The position numbers and the translations under genes were made by a program. DNA of 32,747 nucleotides from Gammaproteobacteria bacterium (lineage in GTDB: Bacteria > Pseudomonadota > Gammaproteobacteria > Pseudomonadales > Cellvibrionaceae). The stretch is taken from assembly GCA_005801205.1 (NCBI GenBank), contig SYDJ01000251.1:1-32747 (forward strand). The letters run 5' to 3'. The notes under the pieces were generated by a model. The model was not told the origin of the DNA. It did no database searches and worked only from the letters and a program-made list of their open reading frames with translations. Within the stretch, counting starts at the first letter, position 1, and each line of letters begins with the position of its first letter. This document shows, one piece after another, positions 10,629 to 26,765 of the stretch.

Positions 10629-10781
10629 CTTGGGATCCTAAAAATGAATGTGCGGATTATAACGGAAATTACTGAACAAGCCTTTGAGTGTTTTGCCCGC
10701 TAGGGTAGAGTGTTGAGTAACTTAATATGAATCGCGCATGGCGTCACCGGCTCGGGTGCCTTTAGAACTTTTAGGAAAACT

Positions 10782-16500: not shown

Positions 16501-18963
16501 TTAAAACGGTTTGAGTGAAAAAGTTGCGTCGCTAATATCGAATTTTGTCTTATCCGTCGCTGAGACAACTAATACCATGTATGCGTTTCCGTTACCGTGA
16601 AAAATAGCTGGGTCAAGATTGTAGGCGCCTGTGTTGCTTACCGCACCAGCAAATTTATACCAATATTTACTGTTGATTGTTGCACCAACCGTTTGGCTGC
16701 TATTGCCCACTAAACCTACGGGGTTATCTTGCAGTATATATAAATCCACCGTTGCGCCAGTAATGTACTGTGTATTCCATGTAATGGTTTGTTGCTCGCC
16801 ATTTTTCCACAGTTCACCGCCATTGGGTGAACTCAATGCCGCGCTATTATTGCCACCTTCGTCCGCCACTATTCTGTTGGCACTTGAGTTGAGGGTAGGT
16901 AAATCTTCCCATTCTTGGGTGGTACTATCGGGAAAAACAAATGTTAGATTGTGATAATTGGCCTGCGTATAATTCACAGTGAACACAGAGTTATTGTTGG
17001 AGACTGGCGTTATTGTCAGTGAGTGCGCACCATTCTGGTAGCTATCACTGAAGTTGCCAAACTCAAGTTCTTCGCCATCAACTCGTAAATAGTGACCGCC
17101 CGGTAAGAAACTGAGCGTGCTACTCCCTCCTGAGCCATTTGGTCTTGTCCACGTACCAATTAAAGTATTCCAGTCGATGAGGCGCGAGTAGTTTGCAAGG
17201 ATATTACCTCCCTCGCTCCATGTTAGGCTCATTAAGCTTTCAGCTTTTAGCGTGGCTCCGTCAAGAATATCATCGCAAGAAGTCGCAAGGCTGCTTGCCT
17301 CTATATGAGTGCTGATAACACCTGTTACAGAATCAATGCTGTAAGTGCCGCGCTCTATGCCATCAGAACAATCAGCGTGGTCTGCCCTAAAGTCCATTGT
17401 GATCATGTATTCATGATTATTACTAAAGCTCAAAACAATATGCGTTTGTAATGGATAGGCTTTCGACGTATCGCTAAAATACCAACTGCCTACCAAATCA
17501 TTCGAGCTGATCACAGCTGGAAATTGATACTCTAGTTGCGATAATGCCGTTAAAATTTCTGTGGTCTTTTTAACAGAGTCATAACTACTGAGTTGTGATT
17601 CATTGGGTTTTGTAACAACGCCTACGAAATCTTCTACAAAGTCCTCGTTAGATGCAGCAATAGTGTGCGTCGTAAAATCGCCTGTTGCAGCATTGTAGTT
17701 GTAGGATAGGTAGCCCCAAGACTCTGGGCTATAAGCGATTAATGTGGTGCTAGAAATATAAGTGTGAATATTGAGGCGCCCCTCGTTATCTACCAGAGTC
17801 CATGAGCCTGCTAAGGGATAATTCCCGCCCACTTTTTTGAGTACGGCATTTCCTAGGCTGAGTTCGTTGCCAGCAATACTAACGGTAAAGGTTTGTGGTT
17901 TATCGATACGGGCTACACCGCAGTCGCCATTGCCATCTTCCGTTGCCTTAAAATTCATTGCGCCTGTGGCTTGATTCCACTCGTAACTGCCAAACTCCAC
18001 ACCGCTTGAACAATTTGAATCATCAGGCTGTTTGCCAATACGCACAAACATGAAGTCGGTGTTGTTGATAAAGCTAATAACGGCGATGGTTTTATTAGGG
18101 TATTGCAAGTTCGCATCATCCATAACCCAGCTGCCTAAAAGTGGGCTGCTCGGTGTTAGTGTTTTATCGTTCAAAATAGTTTTTATGGTGGATTGAATTA
18201 GGCTTGCATCCAGTGTTGCCGCATAGGCATCTGAGGTTGTTTTATTGCTCACAAGCTCTAGCGTGGTATTTACGCCATTGGGTAAATTGTAATCTGGGCT
18301 ATCCACCACAATTTTTATCAGCGCTGCCAGCTTAAGTTTTTCTGCGTCACTGATATTTTTCTTGGCTGTTTCTAATTCTGCATCTGTCGCAGTGCTGAAT
18401 TTGTTTTGCTCAATAAGTGCATATTCTGCTGTTGTCACATTGGTAATATTGACGGCGAAGTTTTCGACGCTATTGAGCATGGCATCATTACCTGCTTGCT
18501 CTATAAGTGTTTTGAAAGAAGGTAGCAGAGACACGAACTCTACCTCTGATTGAGCAGCTCCGCCTTTGGCAACAGCTTTTATTGGCTTGTTGAGATTGGC
18601 ATCATCAACCGTTAGATTGATTGTGTATTTTCCATTGGCATCTGATGTGGTGGTAAAGGTTTGTGATCCTACATAAATCGTCACAGTGGCATTAGGGATT
18701 GTGTTGTCAGTAACTAAGCCGGTAATGGTGACGACATTCGCTTTTTTTGAACTGCTTGACGAGCTACTCAGTGCGAGCGAGCTTACTGAGGAGGAAGAGC
18801 TTATTGAAGAGGAGCTGCTAGGTGCTGAAATGCTACTGGATGAAGTTGTTGCAACAGAGCTTGGGTTAACCGGCGTTTTATCGGCTGATCCACCGCCGCC
18901 GCCACAAGCAGATAAAGTTAGCATTAATGTGATTAATAAACCGTATGGAGAAATAATTTTCAT
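16501..18963 (-). CDS. poly-Ser lipoprotein with four repeated GSW-type domains
   Basis: An 820-residue surface or periplasmic lipoprotein I cannot name. The signal peptide ends in lipobox LSAC (Cys20), followed by Gly5 and a poly-Ser linker (~36-72). An Ig/carboxypeptidase-regulatory-like domain follows (~76-122: TGLVTDNTIPNATVTIYVG with DANGKYTINLTVDD), then a helical stretch (~145-270). Four related beta-rich units begin with LLGSW (276), LAGSW (385), LVGSW (491) and LIGTW (601). Units 1 and 3 share a D-C-S-x-G-I/V-E-x-G-x-Y core with paired cysteines. The C-terminus (~711-800) has SPNGGELWKNGEQQTITWN, the P-x-GG-E-x-W start of the Ser/Thr-rich secreted adhesion-type domain. AAGGA lies upstream of ATG 18963. 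It follows the TraF-like gene after a strong hairpin, so it may be transcribed separately. Role unknown; binding or adhesion is a guess. Confidence 0.75.
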   Translation of the reverse strand: MKIISPYGLLITLMLTLSACGGGGGSADKTPVNPSSVATTSSSSISAPSSSSSISSSSSVSSLALSSSSSSSKKANVVTITGLVTDNTIPNATVTIYVGSQTFTTTSDANGKYTINLTVDDANLNKPIKAVAKGGAAQSEVEFVSLLPSFKTLIEQAGNDAMLNSVENFAVNITNVTTAEYALIEQNKFSTATDAELETAKKNISDAEKLKLAALIKIVVDSPDYNLPNGVNTTLELVSNKTTSDAYAATLDASLIQSTIKTILNDKTLTPSSPLLGSWVMDDANLQYPNKTIAVISFINNTDFMFVRIGKQPDDSNCSSGVEFGSYEWNQATGAMNFKATEDGNGDCGVARIDKPQTFTVSIAGNELSLGNAVLKKVGGNYPLAGSWTLVDNEGRLNIHTYISSTTLIAYSPESWGYLSYNYNAATGDFTTHTIAASNEDFVEDFVGVVTKPNESQLSSYDSVKKTTEILTALSQLEYQFPAVISSNDLVGSWYFSDTSKAYPLQTHIVLSFSNNHEYMITMDFRADHADCSDGIERGTYSIDSVTGVISTHIEASSLATSCDDILDGATLKAESLMSLTWSEGGNILANYSRLIDWNTLIGTWTRPNGSGGSSTLSFLPGGHYLRVDGEELEFGNFSDSYQNGAHSLTITPVSNNNSVFTVNYTQANYHNLTFVFPDSTTQEWEDLPTLNSSANRIVADEGGNNSAALSSPNGGELWKNGEQQTITWNTQYITGATVDLYILQDNPVGLVGNSSQTVGATINSKYWYKFAGAVSNTGAYNLDPAIFHGNGNAYMVLVVSATDKTKFDISDATFSLKPF

Positions 18964-18993
18964 ACATGTTTCCTTTTGCTGAATTATATGAAG

Positions 18994-19034
18994 AGCCTAC
19001 TCTTTCATATTGTTGCTCTTTGAAAGAGTAGGCT
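18994..19034 (-). terminator. long perfect hairpin after the TraF-like gene
   Basis: AGCCTACTCTTTCA (18994-19007) and TGAAAGAGTAGGCT (19021-19034) form a 14-base perfect stem with a 13-base loop, 18 bases after the TraF-like stop. There is no long T-run on either side, so it may be a 3'-end stabiliser or processing hairpin as much as a terminator. Confidence 0.5.
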
Positions 19035-19051
19035 TGTTGACGCCGGATTAT

Positions 19052-20212
19052 TTAGAAGCGAAAGCCACCACTGAGTGCAAAGCCTTGTGTTTTTTCTCCG
19101 CCGCTAATGTAACTTAGGTTCAGCACTGAACCTAAGCCTAGGCCAACAGAGAACGAATCTGCCTGAGTATTTTTGATGTCTTGTTGTAAGCCCGCGCGCA
19201 AGTGCACAAACTTCAATACCGTGTAACTAATACCTGCTCTTAGATATTGCGTGTCACCGAAGCCGCCGAGCGCAGGCACTGCATTCAAATCTAACGCAAC
19301 TTCTGTTGTGAGTGCGCCATTTACATACCCTGCAGAAGCGTTTAGTTGGCGTTTTACTTCAATATTTTCATTAGGAAGAATTGTTTTGTAATCTTGATTT
19401 ATAAGATTTTGTGCCGTCAATCCAACTCGGTATTTATCGCGTACGTAAAGTGCACCAATATCAAGATTCATTGAACTCTTGGAGGTACGATATTGATCGG
19501 CATCCCAACCATCATCTTCGTAGTCTGCAACACTGGTGTTGTAGACAAATGTTTCCACAGAGACTCGCTTGGGCGTTATGCCAAGTTGAAGTCGGCTTAT
19601 GTCATCAATAGCAAAAGATTTTGCCAGCGCAACACCTACTTCACCTATGGCTGCGCCGCGTACATTTACTGTGGATTTAAGCCCTGTGACAGAGTTGGAT
19701 GGATCCCATTGTTTATTAATAAATGAGTCAATTAACGCTAAATCGCTATTAGCAACTTGCGGGGTGAGTGCGGCTTGCGTAAATGCGTTAACCACCAAGG
19801 CTGCCGAGATATTTTCTTTCGATGCAAAGGCTAATACAAAATTTGCGCCCGCATTTATATTGGCTGAGTCGCCATCAATATCTTTTAAGCGAAGCTTTAC
19901 ATCTGACGCTTGTGATGTTGTCATGGAGTTTGCATTACGAATACGATCAGTTAAGTCAGTTAAGTCTTCAGCTTGCGTAGTAAGATCATCTGCATCGCTA
20001 GCCAATGCACCAAAACCCAGTAGTGCCGAGAACCCGCCTTTTGTGGGCGAGCCAGATGCCAATAAGCTTGGGTTTAACAAAACGCCGTCGGAAAAATCAC
20101 CTGTGGCGTAACCTGCACCGGAAACGCCAGAGAGCGCGCCGTGTAATACTTCTGTACTAAATGCCATGGCAGAACATGAACTTAATGCGATACCCATAAA
20201 AACTTTCTTCAT
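19052..20212 (-). CDS. TraF-like outer-membrane protein (conjugal transfer TraF_2 type)
   Basis: A 386-residue exported protein. The signal peptide MKKVFMGIALSSCSAMAFS is followed by EVLHGALSGVSGAGYATGDF and SDGVLLNPSLLASGSP, the pattern seen in proteins annotated as conjugal transfer protein TraF (TraF_2, FadL-like fold). The rest is beta-rich with alternating hydrophobics and ends in a strand with a terminal aromatic (GFALSGGFRF), typical of outer-membrane beta-barrels. No other conjugation genes are present, so a role in plasmid transfer is unlikely and the family name is probably misleading. The ATG at 20212 has AGGAG eight bases upstream; the in-frame TTG at 20218 is less likely. It lies 42 bases after the beta-barrel gene and surely shares its promoter. 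Confidence 0.7.
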   Translation of the reverse strand: MKKVFMGIALSSCSAMAFSTEVLHGALSGVSGAGYATGDFSDGVLLNPSLLASGSPTKGGFSALLGFGALASDADDLTTQAEDLTDLTDRIRNANSMTTSQASDVKLRLKDIDGDSANINAGANFVLAFASKENISAALVVNAFTQAALTPQVANSDLALIDSFINKQWDPSNSVTGLKSTVNVRGAAIGEVGVALAKSFAIDDISRLQLGITPKRVSVETFVYNTSVADYEDDGWDADQYRTSKSSMNLDIGALYVRDKYRVGLTAQNLINQDYKTILPNENIEVKRQLNASAGYVNGALTTEVALDLNAVPALGGFGDTQYLRAGISYTVLKFVHLRAGLQQDIKNTQADSFSVGLGLGSVLNLSYISGGEKTQGFALSGGFRF

Positions 20213-20254
20213 TCCCAAACTCCTAACGATGATTATTTGTCTTCAATATTTTTT

Positions 20255-21139
20255 CTAAAATCCCCAAGAAATACCCAAGCCTGCACCCAGTGTGGTGTAG
20301 CTTATATTGGGAACCCTTATGCGCGTTTCGCCAGACATTTTTTGAATGTGGTTGCGTTCAGAATATTGGCTGTGCAAACCCAGTTTAATAGACACTTTTT
20401 CATTTAACTGATAGCGGGCGCCTACACCACCATTAATCCCCCAGCCATTAAAACTATCGCTTAGGGAATCATTAGGGAGGGAGGTGTTTTGAATAAGAAC
20501 ATAGAGTGGAACGCTGGTACCCAGTTCGGCGTAATAACTCCAGGGCGAATTCTCGGCTAGCGTGCGGGTGTCATATCTCAACAATAAGGTGGCTAGAAAA
20601 GCATATTGATCTTCATTTATCGCACCTGCAAATGTATCAAATGTAGCGGGTGCTATAGCCGCTGCAAAACGTGATGCACCGGGTTCTACTTTTGTAAAGT
20701 TAGAACGTGTAAAGCCAGAGGAGGTAAAATTAGCACCGCCTGCTATCTGCCATGTTTTACTTAGCTGATAAGCGAGCGCCACACCAATTTCGGCTTGCTT
20801 TAACTTGAATTCATTTTCTTGAATCACGCCATGCTTGCCCACTGACCATTGCTCATCGGCAAGGCTGGTCGCAACGGTGGATGATCCACGTACAATCAGC
20901 CCCCAATGATCATTGATGTTTGAATATGAAAGGTTGCGAATAGTGGGGTTGGTGACCGAAACAGATTGTTCCAGTTTGCCGTCATTTCCTATTCGCCCAA
21001 CATCCGATAGTTGTTCTTGATAGGAAATGTGATCGAACCCAAACTCAAGCTCGCTGAATGACTCTGTAGCCACTGCAACTTGGCTTGTTATTGCAAGATA
21101 TAAGATAGATAAAGGTAGAAACCACGGTTTGTTTGCCAT
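20255..21139 (-). CDS. predicted outer-membrane beta-barrel protein
   Basis: A 294-residue exported protein without a family name I can support. The signal peptide MANKPWFLPLSILYLAITSQ with VAVA-T precedes a mature chain of alternating polar and hydrophobic residues, repeated aromatic belts (SPWSYYAELGTSVPLYVLIQ, GWGINGGVGARYQLNE, SIKLGLHSQYSERN) and a final strand YTTLGAGLGISWGF ending in Phe, the BAM recognition form. Length suggests roughly 10-12 strands. It heads a unit with the TraF-like gene and starts from the palindrome-controlled promoter at 21186-21237. The regulator is probably the response regulator encoded at 24194. Confidence 0.65.
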   Translation of the reverse strand: MANKPWFLPLSILYLAITSQVAVATESFSELEFGFDHISYQEQLSDVGRIGNDGKLEQSVSVTNPTIRNLSYSNINDHWGLIVRGSSTVATSLADEQWSVGKHGVIQENEFKLKQAEIGVALAYQLSKTWQIAGGANFTSSGFTRSNFTKVEPGASRFAAAIAPATFDTFAGAINEDQYAFLATLLLRYDTRTLAENSPWSYYAELGTSVPLYVLIQNTSLPNDSLSDSFNGWGINGGVGARYQLNEKVSIKLGLHSQYSERNHIQKMSGETRIRVPNISYTTLGAGLGISWGF

Positions 21140-21185
21140 TACAGATCCTTGGGTTAATGAAAAGAGGGGGTAGTTAATTTTAAAA

Positions 21186-21237
21186 TGTGCGCATTATCAC
21201 AAAAAAGAGGGTTTAGCGGTATCACCTATTTAGGTGA
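21186..21237 (-). promoter_or_regulatory. operator and promoter of the beta-barrel/TraF-like unit
   Basis: On the minus strand the operator TCACCTA-AA-TAGGTGA (21237-21222) is followed by TACCGC, a 17-base spacer and an extended -10, TGTGATAAT (GATAAT at 21198-21193). The predicted start is near 21186, putting the palindrome centre at about -43. The -35 region has no consensus. The whole module is duplicated at 24016-24067 with the same spacing, the strongest evidence that it is functional. Confidence 0.75.
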
Positions 21238-21266
21238 CTGGTGCGACTTAGGTGACGGGTGCGATA
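21231..21266 (+). repeat. 18-base direct repeat adding a third operator half-site
   Basis: TAGGTGACTGGTGCGACT (21231-21248) is repeated as TAGGTGACGGGTGCGATA (21249-21266), 15 of 18 bases identical. The first copy starts with the right arm of the operator; the second provides a further TAGGTGA half-site further upstream of the promoter. The 24 kb promoter lacks it. Confidence 0.65.
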
Positions 21267-21304
21267 TTCTTGTGTCAATAGGCTCACTGGTAGTCGCGTT
21301 ACCT

Positions 21305-21339
21305 AAAAAAATCCCCCAGAAAGGTGGTCTTGCTGGGGG
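21305..21339 (-). terminator. Rho-independent terminator of the PEP-CTERM gene
   Basis: On the minus strand CCCCCAG (21339-21333 read in reverse complement) pairs with CTGGGGG (21319-21313) and is followed by ATTTTTTT. It closes the metalloprotease/PEP-CTERM unit just before the operator of the next unit. Confidence 0.85.
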
Positions 21340-21361
21340 CTTCGTTGTTCATTCTGCGGCT

Positions 21362-22099
21362 CTAAAGAGCATTGCTTCGCAATGCACGGGATTTATAAAA
21401 CCGTAAATTACGAGTCATTAGCCCAACAATACCTATCAGTAGTAAAAATAAAGCCGTTGGTTCCGGCACAGTATTTGTAGCAGTTGCCGGGCGATAGAGC
21501 GCTAGGCCGAGCAAATTGTTGGTTACGCCAGATTGCCCCAAGTTAGTGTTTAGTGACACTTGGGTAACGTTGTGCTGACCGTAAATATTGGTGAAGTCAT
21601 CAACCAGTAATCCGTAGCCAAACATTTCTTGTGTATCGCCAAAAGCCGCCCGGGATTCTCTTAGGCGATCATCTGCAGTGCAACTAGGGTAGCAAAGCCC
21701 AGCTTGTTTAAACGTATCCCCAAACAGATCAATAAAATGGGTAACTGGGCTTGTCTCTGCTGTTGTCCAAGGCAAAATTAATAGATCTTGTTGAATATTG
21801 ATTGCACTATTAAATGTTTTGGTCGCAGAAAATTGAAAGCTATTAAAAAGCTGATTCATTTGCGCATAACCCGCTAGCTGCCAACCTGCGTTGCGCAAAT
21901 CAGCCGCTGCGTTGTCATGTAAAAACCAGTTGACTGTTTTCCCCGTGGTTTCAGTCCACATTAACCATTCTTGGCTATTGCCTGAAACAATATTTGAACT
22001 GCTTTCGCGCGAATAGCCGTTATATTCAATTAGCGCGGCTTGGGTGCAAAGCGAGCTAAAAAATAAAGTGCTGGCTAGTAAAAGTTTTGTGAGGTTCAT
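21362..22099 (-). CDS. PEP-CTERM sorting domain protein
   Basis: A 245-residue exported protein with no recognisable catalytic domain. A signal peptide (MNLTKLLLASTLFFSSLCTQ, ending near QAA) precedes a mature region with NVVSG-like beta strands, WLMWTETTG then KTVNWFLHDN, and a CYPSC pair. The C-terminus is a PEP-CTERM sorting signal: VPEP at 211-214, a hydrophobic helix TALFLLLIGIVGLM, and a basic stop TRNLRFYKSR. Such signals are cut by exosortase and the proteins are sent to the cell surface or matrix. The tail after the helix is longer than usual (about 17 residues). No exosortase gene is in the window. The gene lies 25 bases after the metalloprotease and is followed by a strong terminator, so the two form one unit. 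Confidence 0.85.
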   Translation of the reverse strand: MNLTKLLLASTLFFSSLCTQAALIEYNGYSRESSSNIVSGNSQEWLMWTETTGKTVNWFLHDNAAADLRNAGWQLAGYAQMNQLFNSFQFSATKTFNSAINIQQDLLILPWTTAETSPVTHFIDLFGDTFKQAGLCYPSCTADDRLRESRAAFGDTQEMFGYGLLVDDFTNIYGQHNVTQVSLNTNLGQSGVTNNLLGLALYRPATATNTVPEPTALFLLLIGIVGLMTRNLRFYKSRALRSNAL

Positions 22100-22124
22100 T
22101 CCATTTTTCCTTTGATATGCCTAA

Positions 22125-23987
22125 CTAATTCACGCCATGAAGACCGAGCGTTGCTAATGGTCTTATTGGATCATCATTTTTCCATTCTAGGTATGCGTGA
22201 TACCCATTCCCTAATATAGATGTAAAGCCACCTTGAAATTTCACGTCTACTTGGCAAGTAGCAAGAGGTGATAACTTTTTGGTTGTGCACGTATCATTGA
22301 TAATAACAAATGAGCTTACATCTCTGCCTTTAACAGAGACTTGTTCAATTGAAATTGGCGTTTCACCATTATTGCTCATGGAAACAGTAGTGGTTGCACC
22401 AAGCTTAATTTCTGCAGAAATTTCTTTTGATAAGCTCACAGTAGACCGTTCGATATTAACCCATGTTTTTTTGATTTTGTTTTGAGTGACGTTTTCCGAA
22501 TGCGTTATACGAACACCTCGATACGGATCCCAAAATACGCCTCCTACAGGTAATGTCATGTCATGCGGTTGTAATGGTCTAACGGAATTAAGTTGGCCAA
22601 ATTGTACGTGTGATGTGTCCCAAACGTATTCAGAGTTATTCCAGATCTGAGGTATATCCGCCGATATAAAAACTTTATCGAGAAAATTAGTGCCTAGCTC
22701 TTCTGCCTCTGTTAAAGGTTCTGGGTGTGCGCTGACTCGGTAATCAATGGTGTATAGTGCGGAGGTATTCCCTGTTTTATCGAGTGAAATTGTTAACGCC
22801 TTAGTGCCTGTTGAATGTACATCAAGTGCGTCTATTAATTCTTTGCTACTTCCCTCTATTGATTTTACTTGGTTTTGTAAAAGCCAACCCGCTGCTAGTT
22901 TATTGAGTGGATGCGTGCTCCCACGATATCCCCCCATGGGATCACGCATGCCAGTAACAAAAAAAGTGGCATCACCAGTATTACTGTAGGCTGTACATTT
23001 GTTTCCTTCTGAATAAATTGGATCAGAAAAGCTAGGCGGCATGGAATATGGCCATCCGCTAGACGGCTCCCCTTTAGCATAATCACAATTTAACTTTGAC
23101 GAGTGCATAAATCCCCATAGGTGCCCAATTTCATGCGCCATTACACCTCTGACGCTTTTGATGTCTGCAATATCATTACCAGAAAAGATTGCCACTCGGC
23201 GTTGCAACCCCGATGAACCAATAGTTATTCCTGGGCGTTGATATGCTTTCATACCTGGGTAACCATAGTCTACTGGCGTTAAAACCAAAGCGACCACATC
23301 ATAATCTGCAACATTATAATTCTGGGCTACAAGACTTAAAGCCTCCTCGACAAGGCTATCTCCTAGAGGGTCTTTTGCTTGATGAAATTGTTTACTGTTA
23401 ATTAAGCTCATCCACGGTTTTACATCTGCGGTTATGGTTGCTGCGCCATAAGAGTTGTATTCCCAAGTTCTACGAACTGAGAACGGATTTTCTCCCGTTA
23501 ATGCATTTTTAATTTCATCAATTTCATAAAGTGGCTTGGCTTCTGGGAAATGAAATGGAGCGACTAAAATTTTCATCGTGGAGTAGCCGTCATTTGCAAT
23601 AGGTTTATTTCCACTAGGCGAATAACTACTATCGCAAAGGTCGCCAGCACCATCTAAATCCGCATCTGATTGATATATGTTTTGTATGTCTGGGCAATTA
23701 TCTTGAGAGTCAACAATTCCATCACCGTCTCTATCTGAAAATAGAGTGGAGCTGCTTGATGAGCTACTAAGTCCGAGCGAACTCAGTGAGGATGAACTGC
23801 TTATTCTTGCAGCATTGCTCGATGAGCTTGAAATTGCAGGCGTACTTGATTTGATTGCTGCGCTACTCACTGTAGGTGTTGTAGTGGGTACATCCGAAGA
23901 CCCGCCCCCTCCGCCACACCCTGCAAGGCTCAAGGTCAAAACAAACAAAAATGCCGCTCGCGTAAACTTTAATCGTTGAATGTTCAT
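22125..23987 (-). CDS. poly-Ser lipoprotein metalloprotease (M6/M11-like)
   Basis: A 620-residue lipoprotein zinc protease. The signal ends in LAGC (Cys24) followed by Gly5, then poly-Ser linkers (~53-80). A thrombospondin type-3-like calcium repeat (DRDGDGIVDSQDNCPD, 85-100, and a second DxDxDG-like unit to ~119) precedes the catalytic domain. That domain carries HEIGHLWGFMH at 285-295, a full HExxHxxGxxH zinc site, and a Met-turn-like DPMGG (349-353). HPLNKLAAGWL (~359-369) resembles the NxxxKxxLGWL seen after the active site of M6/M11 (immune inhibitor A/gametolysin) peptidases. The last ~140 residues are beta-rich and include an ASH/choice-of-anchor-like domain (TTTVSMSNNGETPISIEQVS, then LATCQVDVKF). 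It is predicted to act at the cell surface. ATG 23987 has GGAA upstream. It is the first gene of the unit with the PEP-CTERM protein. Confidence 0.85.
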   Translation of the reverse strand: MNIQRLKFTRAAFLFVLTLSLAGCGGGGGSSDVPTTTPTVSSAAIKSSTPAISSSSSNAARISSSSSLSSLGLSSSSSSSTLFSDRDGDGIVDSQDNCPDIQNIYQSDADLDGAGDLCDSSYSPSGNKPIANDGYSTMKILVAPFHFPEAKPLYEIDEIKNALTGENPFSVRRTWEYNSYGAATITADVKPWMSLINSKQFHQAKDPLGDSLVEEALSLVAQNYNVADYDVVALVLTPVDYGYPGMKAYQRPGITIGSSGLQRRVAIFSGNDIADIKSVRGVMAHEIGHLWGFMHSSKLNCDYAKGEPSSGWPYSMPPSFSDPIYSEGNKCTAYSNTGDATFFVTGMRDPMGGYRGSTHPLNKLAAGWLLQNQVKSIEGSSKELIDALDVHSTGTKALTISLDKTGNTSALYTIDYRVSAHPEPLTEAEELGTNFLDKVFISADIPQIWNNSEYVWDTSHVQFGQLNSVRPLQPHDMTLPVGGVFWDPYRGVRITHSENVTQNKIKKTWVNIERSTVSLSKEISAEIKLGATTTVSMSNNGETPISIEQVSVKGRDVSSFVIINDTCTTKKLSPLATCQVDVKFQGGFTSILGNGYHAYLEWKNDDPIRPLATLGLHGVN

Positions 23988-24015
23988 CCGGAAGTTCCAT
24001 ATAAATCATAAAAAG

Positions 24016-24067
24016 TGTGCGGATTATCACAAAAAGCAGGTGCTGGCGGTATCACCTATATAGGTGA
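24016..24067 (-). promoter_or_regulatory. operator and promoter of the metalloprotease/PEP-CTERM unit
   Basis: On the minus strand the perfect palindrome TCACCTATATAGGTGA (24067-24052) is followed by TACCGC, a 17-base spacer and the extended -10 TGTGATAAT (GATAAT at 24028-24023). The start is predicted near 24016. The -35 hexamer is poor, as in activator-dependent class II promoters. A 7-2-7 palindrome is the usual form of a NarL/LuxR-type response regulator site, and such a regulator is encoded 130 bases away in the opposite direction. Confidence 0.78.
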
Positions 24068-24115
24068 CAAAGAGGCTAAAAACGCTCTTTCTGGCAGGTT
24101 TTTCCTTGCATAGGC

Positions 24116-24144
24116 TTTACAACCTTAGGGATTTTTATGATATT
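24116..24144 (+). promoter_or_regulatory. candidate sigma-70 promoter of the two-component genes
   Basis: TTTACA (24116-24121), a 17-base spacer and GATATT (24139-24144) give a moderate sigma-70 match about 50 bases before the response regulator ATG. The 24 kb palindrome lies ~50 bases further upstream, so autoregulation is possible. Confidence 0.35.
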
Positions 24145-24193
24145 GCGGGGCGGGATTTCTTGGGATGCGTTACGAGTTGGAGCTTGGTGGTGT

Positions 24194-24808
24194 ATGACGA
24201 ACACGATTGCGATCATTGAAGATAATGTTGAATTTATGACTTATTTCGCTCAGCTGTTTGAGCGCTATACCGATTTTACAATTAAATACAAAGCCGTAGA
24301 TTTTAAAGAGGGGCTGGCGCTTTTGCCTTTGTCTCCGGTAAACATTGTCTTTGTTGACCTTGGTTTGCCGGATGGCAGCGGTCTTGATCTGATAAAAAAA
24401 ATCACGCGCGCATGGCCAGATTCCACGGTCATTGTGCTGAGTATTTTTGCGGGAACGCAAAGCATTATTAGTGCGATTGAACTTGGTGCGGCAGGTTACT
24501 TACATAAAGATGAACCTGAAAATCGGTTTATGGAGGGCTTAAACGATATCCTCGAAGGTAACCCTAGCATCTCTCCTATGATTGCGCGCTCGTTGCTTAG
24601 CTATTTTCGGCCTAAGAAACAAGTGGCACTTACAGACCGCGAAACAGAAATTTTAACGCTCTCTAAAAAAGGGCTGGAGCGCAAAGAAATCGCAGAGCAG
24701 TTAAATATTTCTATCAATACAGTATCAAGCCACATTAAAAAAATTTTTAAAAAACTTGGCGTTAATTCAATCACGGAAGCGATATATGAAACATCTGGCA
24801 CCGTTTAA
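24194..24808 (+). CDS. NarL/FixJ-family response regulator (receiver plus LuxR HTH)
   Basis: A 204-residue cytoplasmic transcription factor. The receiver domain has acidic residues Glu9-Asp10 (IIEDN), phosphoacceptor Asp55 (IVFVDLGLPDGSG), a Ser in the switch position (VIVLSIFAG) and the conserved Lys in YLHKDEP. The C-terminal LuxR-type helix-turn-helix (~138-200) reads LTDRETEILTLSKKGLERKE, then IAEQLNISINTVSSHIKKIF and KKLGVNSITEAI. The frame is open to an ATG at 24137, but the receiver fold begins at MTNTIAIIEDN, so I take the ATG at 24194, with GGAG 11-14 bases upstream. Its end overlaps the kinase gene by 23 bases. The twin 7-2-7 palindromes at 21222-21237 and 24052-24067 are its likely binding sites. 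Confidence 0.92.
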   Translation: MTNTIAIIEDNVEFMTYFAQLFERYTDFTIKYKAVDFKEGLALLPLSPVNIVFVDLGLPDGSGLDLIKKITRAWPDSTVIVLSIFAGTQSIISAIELGAAGYLHKDEPENRFMEGLNDILEGNPSISPMIARSLLSYFRPKKQVALTDRETEILTLSKKGLERKEIAEQLNISINTVSSHIKKIFKKLGVNSITEAIYETSGTV

Positions 24809-26765
24809 AGCGGCATCCACAGCCGTAGGGAAAGCGGTTACGTTTATTTTTGTGGGCATTTTTTTATTGTTTTTGTTGGCATTGGCCTATCTCGTGTTTA
24901 AGCCAGGTGCTCCTGCTGTTGTTGAAAAAGTTAAACCCATGGTGTGGTTTGAGCCAATAACAACGACAGAATATGGAAATGCCGCTTTTACTAAGTTAGC
25001 GTCACAAATTCCTCGTTTTGATAATGTGCAATGGCAAGCCACTGAATTGCCCATCATGCAAGAATTACCTAGTTATGTGGAGATAGCGCCAGATGCACCC
25101 ATGTCTCGAGTTTGGCTGAGTTTTGATTATAAAATTCCGCCAGATTTTGATTCGTCACACGGTGTTGCGCTTTATGGTGCACGGGTCAAGGCAGGATCAT
25201 ACGCCATTTATATTGATGATCAGTTGGTGTTTGATAATCGTCATAACTGGCGAATGCAGTGGAATCACCCACTGTATTTTCAAATTCCCTATCCCTTACT
25301 GAAAAATAGAGACAGATTGAATATTAAAATTTCGGTGCCCTATAAAGATGCGTTGGGTTATGCGGTGGGTAGTTTATATATTGGCGATGTAGGAAAACTA
25401 AAAAATTGGAGTGAAATGCGTTATTTGTTTTCTATTTCGTTTCCTTGGTGGTGTAGTTTTGTGTTGCTGATATTGGGTTTGATGTCTTTGCATCTTTATT
25501 TTTCTGGTATCGATAAAAAAACCAATTGGTTGTTCTTTTGTACTAGTGTTGCTTATTTTGTTTGCAACCTACAATATGTTTACGATATTCCCGACAATGA
25601 CATCTACTCATTATGGTATGGATCTATTGTGGATTCTGCCACTAGTTGGTTTCTTGTATTATCGACTATGTACATATTAGGGTTAAGTCAGAGGCAATAT
25701 CCCAGTGTAAAGTTTATCGCCTATTCAACAGCAATATTTTTGAGTGTCATTACCTTGCCTGCGTGGAAGTGGAATGCGAGTGCTTTAATTTTGCAGCACT
25801 ATATAAATATGATTTTAATCGCAGGTATTGGTGGGTTGCTTGTCTATCGTTCTGTGGTCGAAAAAAATGCCATGCTTCGCTTGCTCAGTGCTTCTCTCTG
25901 GATCTCGATTTTAGGCTTCATGCATGATCTGACCTATATGACCAGTAATGTCGCACCGGACAGATTTTTTATTTCTAGTTTTGTATCCATTCCTTTTATG
26001 TTTAGCTTTGTTCTTACGTTGCAACGCTCTTACATAAACACCTACAAGCTAACCCTTCAGCACAATAAAATAATCACCGAAAAACTTGCAGAACAAGAGC
26101 TCAGGCTTAACCAACAACAAGAGCAAATTATCAGCCAAGAGAAGGTTATTGCCATCGCTTCTGAGCGCGATAGGTTTATGCGCGATATTCATGATGGTAT
26201 AGGCGGCATATTGATTAGCACGTTGCGCGCCGCTGAAAATGATCAACCTGTTTCTCATATATCCGACATGCTAAAAGACTGTTTGGTTGATCTTGAAAAT
26301 ATTATTCTTTCTTTAGAGCCTAATGAAAAAGATTTAACCGTTTTACTGGGTTCATTGCGGCAAAAACTCCATAAACGATTAGATAAAACGGGCGTAAAGG
26401 TTGAGTGGAATATTGATGATTTGCCCGATGTTGAAGGCTTGGATGCCAGCAAATCCTTGAGTATTTTGCGTATTGTTCAAGAGGCTATTACCAATGCCCT
26501 CAAGCATTCGCGGTGCACTATTATTACAGTCACCGCTAAGGCTGTAGTCTTTCATGGAGCGGAGAGAATTAACATAACCATTGCCGATAATGGTATTGGC
26601 TTTGATGAAACCACCATTGCAACAAGTAGAGGCTTAAAAAATATGCGCTATCGCGCCGATAATAGTGACTGTGAATTGTCTGTAAGCTCTAGCGCAACAG
26701 GAACTACAGTTTTTGTTGGGGTTCCTGTTTGTATAGCTTATGTATTGCCTCAACTAAATGGTTGA
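24786..26765 (+). CDS. membrane histidine kinase with 7TM-DISM-like sensor, HisKA_3 type
   Basis: A 659-residue sensor kinase, cognate to the overlapping response regulator. One helix (17-38) leads to a periplasmic beta-rich domain (~40-205: LYGARVKAGSYAIYIDDQLV and LYFQIPYPLLKNRDRLNIKI). About seven membrane helices follow (~218-413), the layout of 7TMR-DISM sensors that bind small ligands or carbohydrates. A coiled coil (~415-460) leads to the HisKA_3 box RDRFMRDIHDGIGG with phosphoacceptor His469. The HATPase domain has N-box QEAITNALKHS (Asn570), G1 box DNGIGFDE (601-608) and RGLKNMRYRA. The ATG at 24786 has GGAAG eight bases upstream; the in-frame TTG at 24756 is less likely. The ligand is unknown. 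After the stop, 26766-26847 has no clear terminator. Confidence 0.9.
   Translation: MKHLAPFKAASTAVGKAVTFIFVGIFLLFLLALAYLVFKPGAPAVVEKVKPMVWFEPITTTEYGNAAFTKLASQIPRFDNVQWQATELPIMQELPSYVEIAPDAPMSRVWLSFDYKIPPDFDSSHGVALYGARVKAGSYAIYIDDQLVFDNRHNWRMQWNHPLYFQIPYPLLKNRDRLNIKISVPYKDALGYAVGSLYIGDVGKLKNWSEMRYLFSISFPWWCSFVLLILGLMSLHLYFSGIDKKTNWLFFCTSVAYFVCNLQYVYDIPDNDIYSLWYGSIVDSATSWFLVLSTMYILGLSQRQYPSVKFIAYSTAIFLSVITLPAWKWNASALILQHYINMILIAGIGGLLVYRSVVEKNAMLRLLSASLWISILGFMHDLTYMTSNVAPDRFFISSFVSIPFMFSFVLTLQRSYINTYKLTLQHNKIITEKLAEQELRLNQQQEQIISQEKVIAIASERDRFMRDIHDGIGGILISTLRAAENDQPVSHISDMLKDCLVDLENIILSLEPNEKDLTVLLGSLRQKLHKRLDKTGVKVEWNIDDLPDVEGLDASKSLSILRIVQEAITNALKHSRCTIITVTAKAVVFHGAERINITIADNGIGFDETTIATSRGLKNMRYRADNSDCELSVSSSATGTTVFVGVPVCIAYVLPQLNG

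Follow-up and report, generated by a model that had tools for sequence, protein, structure and literature searches.

Two copies of a promoter module with a 7-2-7 palindrome precede minus-strand operons beside a NarL/FixJ-family two-component system

Results

Genes and features of the locus

The stretch of DNA analysed here, hereafter the window, is 32,747 nucleotides long. A gene cluster occupies 16501 to 26765, with TamAB on one side and a methyltransferase/glutamate racemase/RmuC block on the other; its genes and regulatory features are collected in Table 1. Two promoter modules lie in this cluster, one ahead of a gene for a lipoprotein with a zincin motif (site 1), the other ahead of a gene for an outer-membrane beta-barrel protein (site 2). 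Site 1 is located between divergent genes, the protease lipoprotein gene on the minus strand and a response regulator gene on the plus strand. The original prediction described the genes behind the two modules as unrelated; their products do belong to different protein families, yet both genes are part of one cluster.

The lipoprotein encoded behind site 1 matches the M6 and reprolysin profiles weakly, in both cases under the curated cut-offs. An inverted repeat with a run of T behind it, recognised by eye, possibly marks the end of a transcript covering the protease and PEP-CTERM genes; it is not among the terminators listed by the terminator scan. The predicted site 2 unit begins with the barrel and TraF_2-family genes and possibly includes the gene of the 820-aa Ser-rich lipoprotein.

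Table 1. Genes and sequence features of the cluster, in window coordinates
Feature	Position	Strand	Remarks
Ser-rich lipoprotein, 820 aa	16501..18963	-	88 bases past TraF_2 gene
TraF_2-family protein	19052..20218	-	36 bases past barrel gene
Outer-membrane beta-barrel protein	20255..21139	-	PF13505; first gene after site 2
Site 2 module	21237 down to 21186	-	TCACCTA AA TAGGTGA / TACCGC / TAAACCCTCTTTTT / TGTGATAAT / G / CGCACA
Site 2 CGCACA	21186..21191	-	discriminator and predicted start (A at 21186)
Site 2 extended -10	21193..21201	-	TGTGATAAT; barrel promoter
Site 2 TACCGC	21216..21221	-	-35 position
Site 2 putative operator	21222..21237	-	perfect 7-2-7 palindrome TCACCTAAATAGGTGA
Extra half-site TCACCTA	21249..21255	-	part of direct repeat; ahead of site 2, near -69 to -63
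Inverted repeat and T run	21310..21342	-	possible protease/PEP-CTERM transcript end; arms 86% complementary, by eye
PEP-CTERM protein	21362..22099	-	25 bases past protease gene; TIGR02595 21.2 bits (cut-off 16)
Lipoprotein, zincin motif HEIGHLWGFMH	22125..23987	-	first gene after site 1
Site 1 module	24067 down to 24016	-	TCACCTA TA TAGGTGA / TACCGC / CAGCACCTGCTTTT / TGTGATAAT / C / CGCACA
Site 1 CGCACA	24016..24021	-	discriminator and predicted start (A at 24016)
Site 1 extended -10	24023..24031	-	TGTGATAAT; protease promoter
Site 1 TACCGC	24046..24051	-	-35 position; 1/6 to TTGACA, same in site 2
Site 1 putative operator	24052..24067	-	perfect 7-2-7 palindrome TCACCTATATAGGTGA
Candidate regulator-operon promoter	24116..24144	+	TTTACA-17-GATATT; consensus match only, 9/12
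NarL/FixJ-family response regulator	24194..24808	+	receiver and LuxR HTH; proposed palindrome reader
Histidine kinase	24786..26765	+	HATPase_c; hydrophobic N-terminal half (by eye); overlaps regulator gene

The regulator and its kinase

A NarL/LuxR-type regulator had been predicted 130 bases from site 1, and the ATG of the regulator gene indeed lies 127 bases from the palindrome. Its product has the receiver domain (PF00072, 63.8 bits, cut-off 30.2), the LuxR-type helix-turn-helix (HTH; PF00196, 63.6 bits, cut-off 23.5) and the adjacent partner kinase gene of a NarL/FixJ-family response regulator, and is the sole DNA-binding protein found among the scanned proteins of the cluster. The best relatives of solved structure are ChrA, NarL, VraR and DevR; the receiver aspartate aligns with those of ChrA and NarL.

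The kinase is recognised by its HATPase_c domain (37.1 bits, cut-off 26.4), and the nearest curated models, MctS, LiaS, UhpB and NarQ, all score under cut-off. Pfam found no sensor domain. When the outer domain (24918–25400) is modelled from its sequence alone, the best structural matches are beta-sandwich domains of glycosidases, sugar-binding ones, with the RetS sensor domain ranking 22nd and 23rd; since the model is poor (mean pLDDT 53.7), these matches are only a hint that the ligand may be of the carbohydrate type.

Sequence and layout of the paired modules

The palindrome module had been predicted at 24016–24067 and again at 21186–21237, and it is present at both places. Read on the minus strand, each copy consists of TCACCTA-N2-TAGGTGA, TACCGC, 14 bases, TGTGATAAT, one base and CGCACA. 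The palindromes, two heptamers inverted around 2 bases, pair at 7/7 positions in both copies. Irrespective of sequence, the window holds six perfect 7-2-7 inverted repeats, these two among them. TACCGC, at the -35 position, agrees with TTGACA at one base in six, and is thus as poor a -35 as had been announced for both sites. The predicted spacer of 17 bases has the right length and the wrong end point: it runs from TACCGC to GATAAT, the distance from TACCGC to TGTGATAAT being 14. Taking GATAAT as -12 to -7, the predicted start is an A at both sites, 29 and 47 bases ahead of the ATG codons at 23987 and 21139, and the palindrome spans -51 to -36, directly abutting the -35 position, with its centre at -43.5, in keeping with the predicted -43. 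At the level of sequence, a good -10 (TGTGATAAT), a poor -35 and a palindrome abutting it are the features expected of an activator-dependent sigma-70 promoter.

The two sites also have features of their own. Site 1 contains a competing consensus promoter, TTGTGA-16-TATGAT (24032–24005, 9/12), that is absent at site 2. At site 2, a 17-base direct repeat at 21230–21264 (TTAGGTGACTGGTGCGA / TTAGGTGACGGGTGCGA, 18-base spacing, 94% identical) overlaps the palindrome and gives rise to the extra half-site.

Conservation between the two modules

Aligned without gaps, the two 53-base modules are identical at 44 of 53 positions; with independent bases, the expected number of pairs this similar in the window is about 4e-9. 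The next best pairs of 53-mers in the window reach 27/53, and identity in the flanks of the modules is at background (14/60 upstream, 8/30 downstream). The palindrome itself, with up to 3 mismatches allowed, matches five times in the window, a number that none of 100 shuffles reached. Of the nine differences between the modules, the first ten spacer bases hold six; the other three are at the palindrome centre, directly behind the -10 and at the final base. The excess in the first 10 spacer bases (6/9; Fisher p = 6e-4) shows that differences are concentrated in the spacer, and therefore that the elements, not the intervening DNA, were kept. The pair of promoters is real and under selection.

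Distribution of the palindrome and of the module

The original prediction extended to a defined regulon. The genome that contains the window is available as 3,513,060 bases in 253 contigs and is 77.54% complete; within it, the perfect palindrome occurs at these two places only. With up to 2 mismatches allowed, the palindrome was found at 8 places and its reversed control at 20; the six two-mismatch places are all inside open frames of at least 320 aa. The half-site combined with the extended -10, at up to 3 mismatches, gave 24 matches (25 in the control): the 2 known perfect ones, 21 with 3 mismatches, and a single one with 2 mismatches, which adjoins the start of an opposite-strand ORF on contig C204. 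Six places matched TCACC-N6-GGTGA (control, 4), the four extra ones lying within open frames of at least 120 aa. TTGTGATAATNCGCACA, again at up to 3 mismatches, was found 33 times (2 perfect, 31 at 3 mismatches) against 39 in the control; 24 of the 30 matches with loci are inside ORFs of at least 100 aa, and the six outside are the two modules and loci L081, L088, L093 and L104. Scans of the 77% complete genome for the palindrome and the -10 thus brought up no convincing site past these two operons. A regulon beyond them is not supported, the looser patterns being near the level of the reversed control in this genome.

The search was widened to other genomes. In a set of 57, own genome included, 24 contain the palindrome with up to 1 mismatch, and the perfect form is present in the own genome only. 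Elsewhere in the set, one-mismatch palindromes were counted from the table at 32 places, compared with 65 for the control; 21 of the 23 places with loci are in stop-to-stop frames of at least 150 aa, and the remaining two (L008, L020) are without the module. The whole module, at up to 3 mismatches in 390 genomes of the order, matched 8 times outside the own genome (control, 13), each time with 3 mismatches, so that order-level matches are overall at chance level. Of the two matches inspected, L107 and L108, the latter (G406:C107:33239-33283), from another family of the order, is intergenic and looks module-like; it precedes a MaoC-like gene that neighbours an acyl-CoA dehydrogenase-like one. 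Neither search pattern matched in viral contigs. In the literature searched, no paper has TAGGTGA in the context of a palindrome, a transcriptional regulator and a promoter, and neither TCACCTA nor TAGGTGA occurs in 15 further papers listed.

Relatives of the cluster genes

Relatives of the cluster genes are scarce. The protease has none in 20 other genomes of the genus (E 1e-15) and the barrel none in 143 other genomes of the family (E 1e-8). For the regulator, the family genomes (143 others, E 1e-33, best 22 candidates per genome) contain one relative, at 39% identity, and the genus, family and order samples together only remote ones, at 35–44% (the order search scored the top 8 candidates of each genome). 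Around six relatives in this range (L029, L031–L035), no copy of the palindrome with fewer than 3 mismatches is present in about 1.5 kb of surrounding sequence; the closest match is a single copy with 3 mismatches, at L033. A search of 84,980 species, in which short exact peptide seeds were used so that close relatives only were detectable, gave no close relative of the regulator and five remote ones, with identities of 34–35% in long alignments and 41% in one of 54 residues. In 1009 plasmid records all relatives of the regulator are under 60%, the best listed at 35%.

Thirteen relatives have the neighbouring methyltransferase, and for ten of them 18–19 kb each were fetched. RmuC, racemase and methyltransferase occur together in 5/10, four of these five also with a GNAT match, and the methyltransferase occurs alone in the other five; no cluster gene matched in any of the ten regions (E 1e-8). 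The stretch from 16501 to 26765 is therefore an accessory cluster, none of its genes being near the methyltransferase in 10/10 relatives fetched. In the sets searched, the protease, barrel and regulator genes are confined to this genome, apart from remote relatives of the regulator.

The own genome holds a paralogue of the barrel, 54% identical (G000:C198:1807-2661; L061, L068). It adjoins a gene for a 777-aa lipoprotein-like protein with short local similarity to the 820-aa lipoprotein of the window. This is a second barrel/lipoprotein pair without the palindrome: contig C198 contains no palindrome within 2 mismatches, and none was seen in the upstream stretches of the paralogue that were read.

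Discussion

A proposed local two-component switch

I propose, with a probability of roughly 0.7, that the palindromes are operators of the adjacent regulator, which would activate both operons from their defective -35 elements upon a signal to the kinase. The product of the overlapping kinase gene would receive the signal, and the regulator, once phosphorylated, would bind the 7-2-7 palindromes as a dimer, beside TACCGC, and recruit sigma-70 RNA polymerase to the extended -10. Operon 1, for the protease lipoprotein and the PEP-CTERM protein, would be switched on, and jointly with it operon 2, for the outer-membrane barrel, the TraF_2-like protein and perhaps the next lipoprotein. The confinement of the sites to the neighbourhood of the regulator gene is as expected of a local regulator. 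Several observations speak against the proposal: the six remote regulator relatives lack near-perfect palindromes nearby, NarL differs in the base-contacting residues and BldM in the inner operator bases, a lone NarL site at -44.5 did not couple expression to nitrate, and site 1 has a competing promoter; the genome, moreover, is only 77% complete. Of the original interpretation, the paired 7-2-7 palindromes, the poor -35, the extended -10 and the NarL/FixJ-family neighbour stand, and the precedent of BldM speaks for it; the wider regulon is not supported by the available genome.

An alternative is that the palindromes are recognised by a different transcription factor, whose gene lies elsewhere, and that the adjacent two-component genes are bystanders. 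Palindromes of 16 bp serve many regulator families, and the adjacent regulator is a putative reader. I nevertheless regard this as unlikely: in the available genome the palindrome is confined to two places no more than about 3 kb from the regulator gene, and BldM provides a footprinted precedent from the LuxR family with the same layout and outer bases (PMC4125116).

Less likely still is joint control by CRP and the regulator, the conserved TGTGATAATNCGCACA being a CRP/Vfr-type site and the 'extended -10' partly or wholly a CRP operator. This would account for the conservation of CGCACA, which at site 1 is also within a CRP-like TGTGA-N6-GCACA; TGTGATAATNCGCACA agrees with TGTGA-N6-TCACA at 9/10 positions at both sites, and no other place in the window comes within 1 mismatch of it. 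Two or more such matches, however, turn up in 18 of 100 shuffles, and CRP bound with its centre at -7.5 would be expected to obstruct the promoter. Moreover, an unrelated RlmJ-family gene has TTATAATCCGCACA, that is the -10 and CGCACA without TGTGA. This copy lies at 10649–10665 on the minus strand, without a palindrome, 21 bases ahead of the first ATG; the RlmJ profile match begins at residue 33, so the true start may be further on. The support from RlmJ is weak because the window has five copies of ATAATNCGC, a count also attained in 8 of 100 shuffles. Reading the element as a -10 with discriminator is preferred over CRP because of the RlmJ-family TTATAATCCGCACA and of the block expected from CRP at -7.5.

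Improbable, too, is repression of both operons by the regulator, or a role chiefly at its own promoter. Site 1 does lie between the divergent genes, its centre about 91 bases ahead of the predicted start of the regulator operon; it would thus sit near -91 if the candidate promoter at 24116 is used, a consensus match of a kind that the promoter scan found 14 times in the window against 18.0 in shuffles, that is, less often than in shuffled sequence. Repression is opposed by the -35, which at 1/6 in both copies is as in activator-dependent promoters, and by the palindromes, which are upstream of the -35 and not over the -10. In addition, no divergent ORF of at least 80 aa starts near site 2. Finally, a recent neutral duplication without function, to which the 44/53 identity within 3 kb might point, is very improbable given that identity ends at the module edges (14/60, 8/30) and that the differences are concentrated in the spacer.

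Activation by the adjacent regulator thus remains the preferred reading. Were it correct, an uncharacterised two-component system would gain both an operator sequence and a set of targets, and a PEP-CTERM protein would be linked to a LuxR-type response regulator. The locus also offers a clean test case of two promoters for relating recognition helices of this large family to heptamer sequences; as general biology it is ordinary. A bolder version is tentative and rather doubtful: the kinase, possibly with a sugar-binding outer domain, and the regulator would form a closed, lineage-private circuit that co-switches the protease, the PEP-CTERM protein and the barrel unit through an operator whose outer half is that of BldM. 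Within it, the notion that two distant regulators of one family share a TCACC-N6-GGTGA code is likewise possible rather than probable.

Comparison with known systems

BldM of Streptomyces carries a LuxR-type HTH. In the BldM study (PMC4125116), Group I promoters are described as controlled by a homodimer of this response regulator, with 16-bp palindromic sites of consensus TCACcCgnncGgGTGA, and binding was footprinted on two promoters. The operator described here has the same 16-bp 7-2-7 layout and the identical outer TCACC...GGTGA, but does not match the Group I consensus as given there, the inner two bases of both arms being TA here and CG in BldM (PMC4125116). BldM is described as an atypical regulator without a partner kinase (an orphan), its developmental regulon extending across the genome, whereas here there are an adjacent kinase gene and two local sites.

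The position of the palindromes recalls NarL of E. coli. There, a single 7-2-7 site just upstream of the -35 suffices at yeaR, sites at ogt are centred at -44.5 and -77.5, and a lone improved site at -44.5 gave expression uncoupled from nitrate (PMC7419079). As at these promoters, the 7-2-7 site abuts the -35, with a centre at -44.5 at ogt and predicted at -43.5 here (PMC7419079). Both the heptamer sequence and the residues of the recognition helix, unlike the position, differ from those of the NarL promoters. The NarL/NarP heptamer consensus is TACYYMT, to which TCACCTA conforms, by eye, at 3/7 positions. In the alignment with NarL, the recognition-helix stretch reads TVSSHIKK in the regulator and TVKVHVKH in NarL; the three positions at which NarL contacts bases are K, V and K in NarL and S, S and K here, so NarL is not predictive of the operator sequence. 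On the sequence, the change in the helix would fit a different operator.

The arrangement of a LuxR-HTH regulator with an adjacent sensor kinase is that of NarX-NarL, UhpB-UhpA and MctS-MctR. Unlike in NarX-NarL and MctS-MctR, the curated full-length models score far under their cut-offs here (regulator, among the 25 of 72 families listed: MctR 99, cut-off 300, and NarL 96, cut-off 250; kinase: MctS 69, cut-off 700). Set beside these systems, the locus looks like an ordinary two-component system whose operator is private, and thus like a modest, local form of a gene switch that is well known in bacteria.
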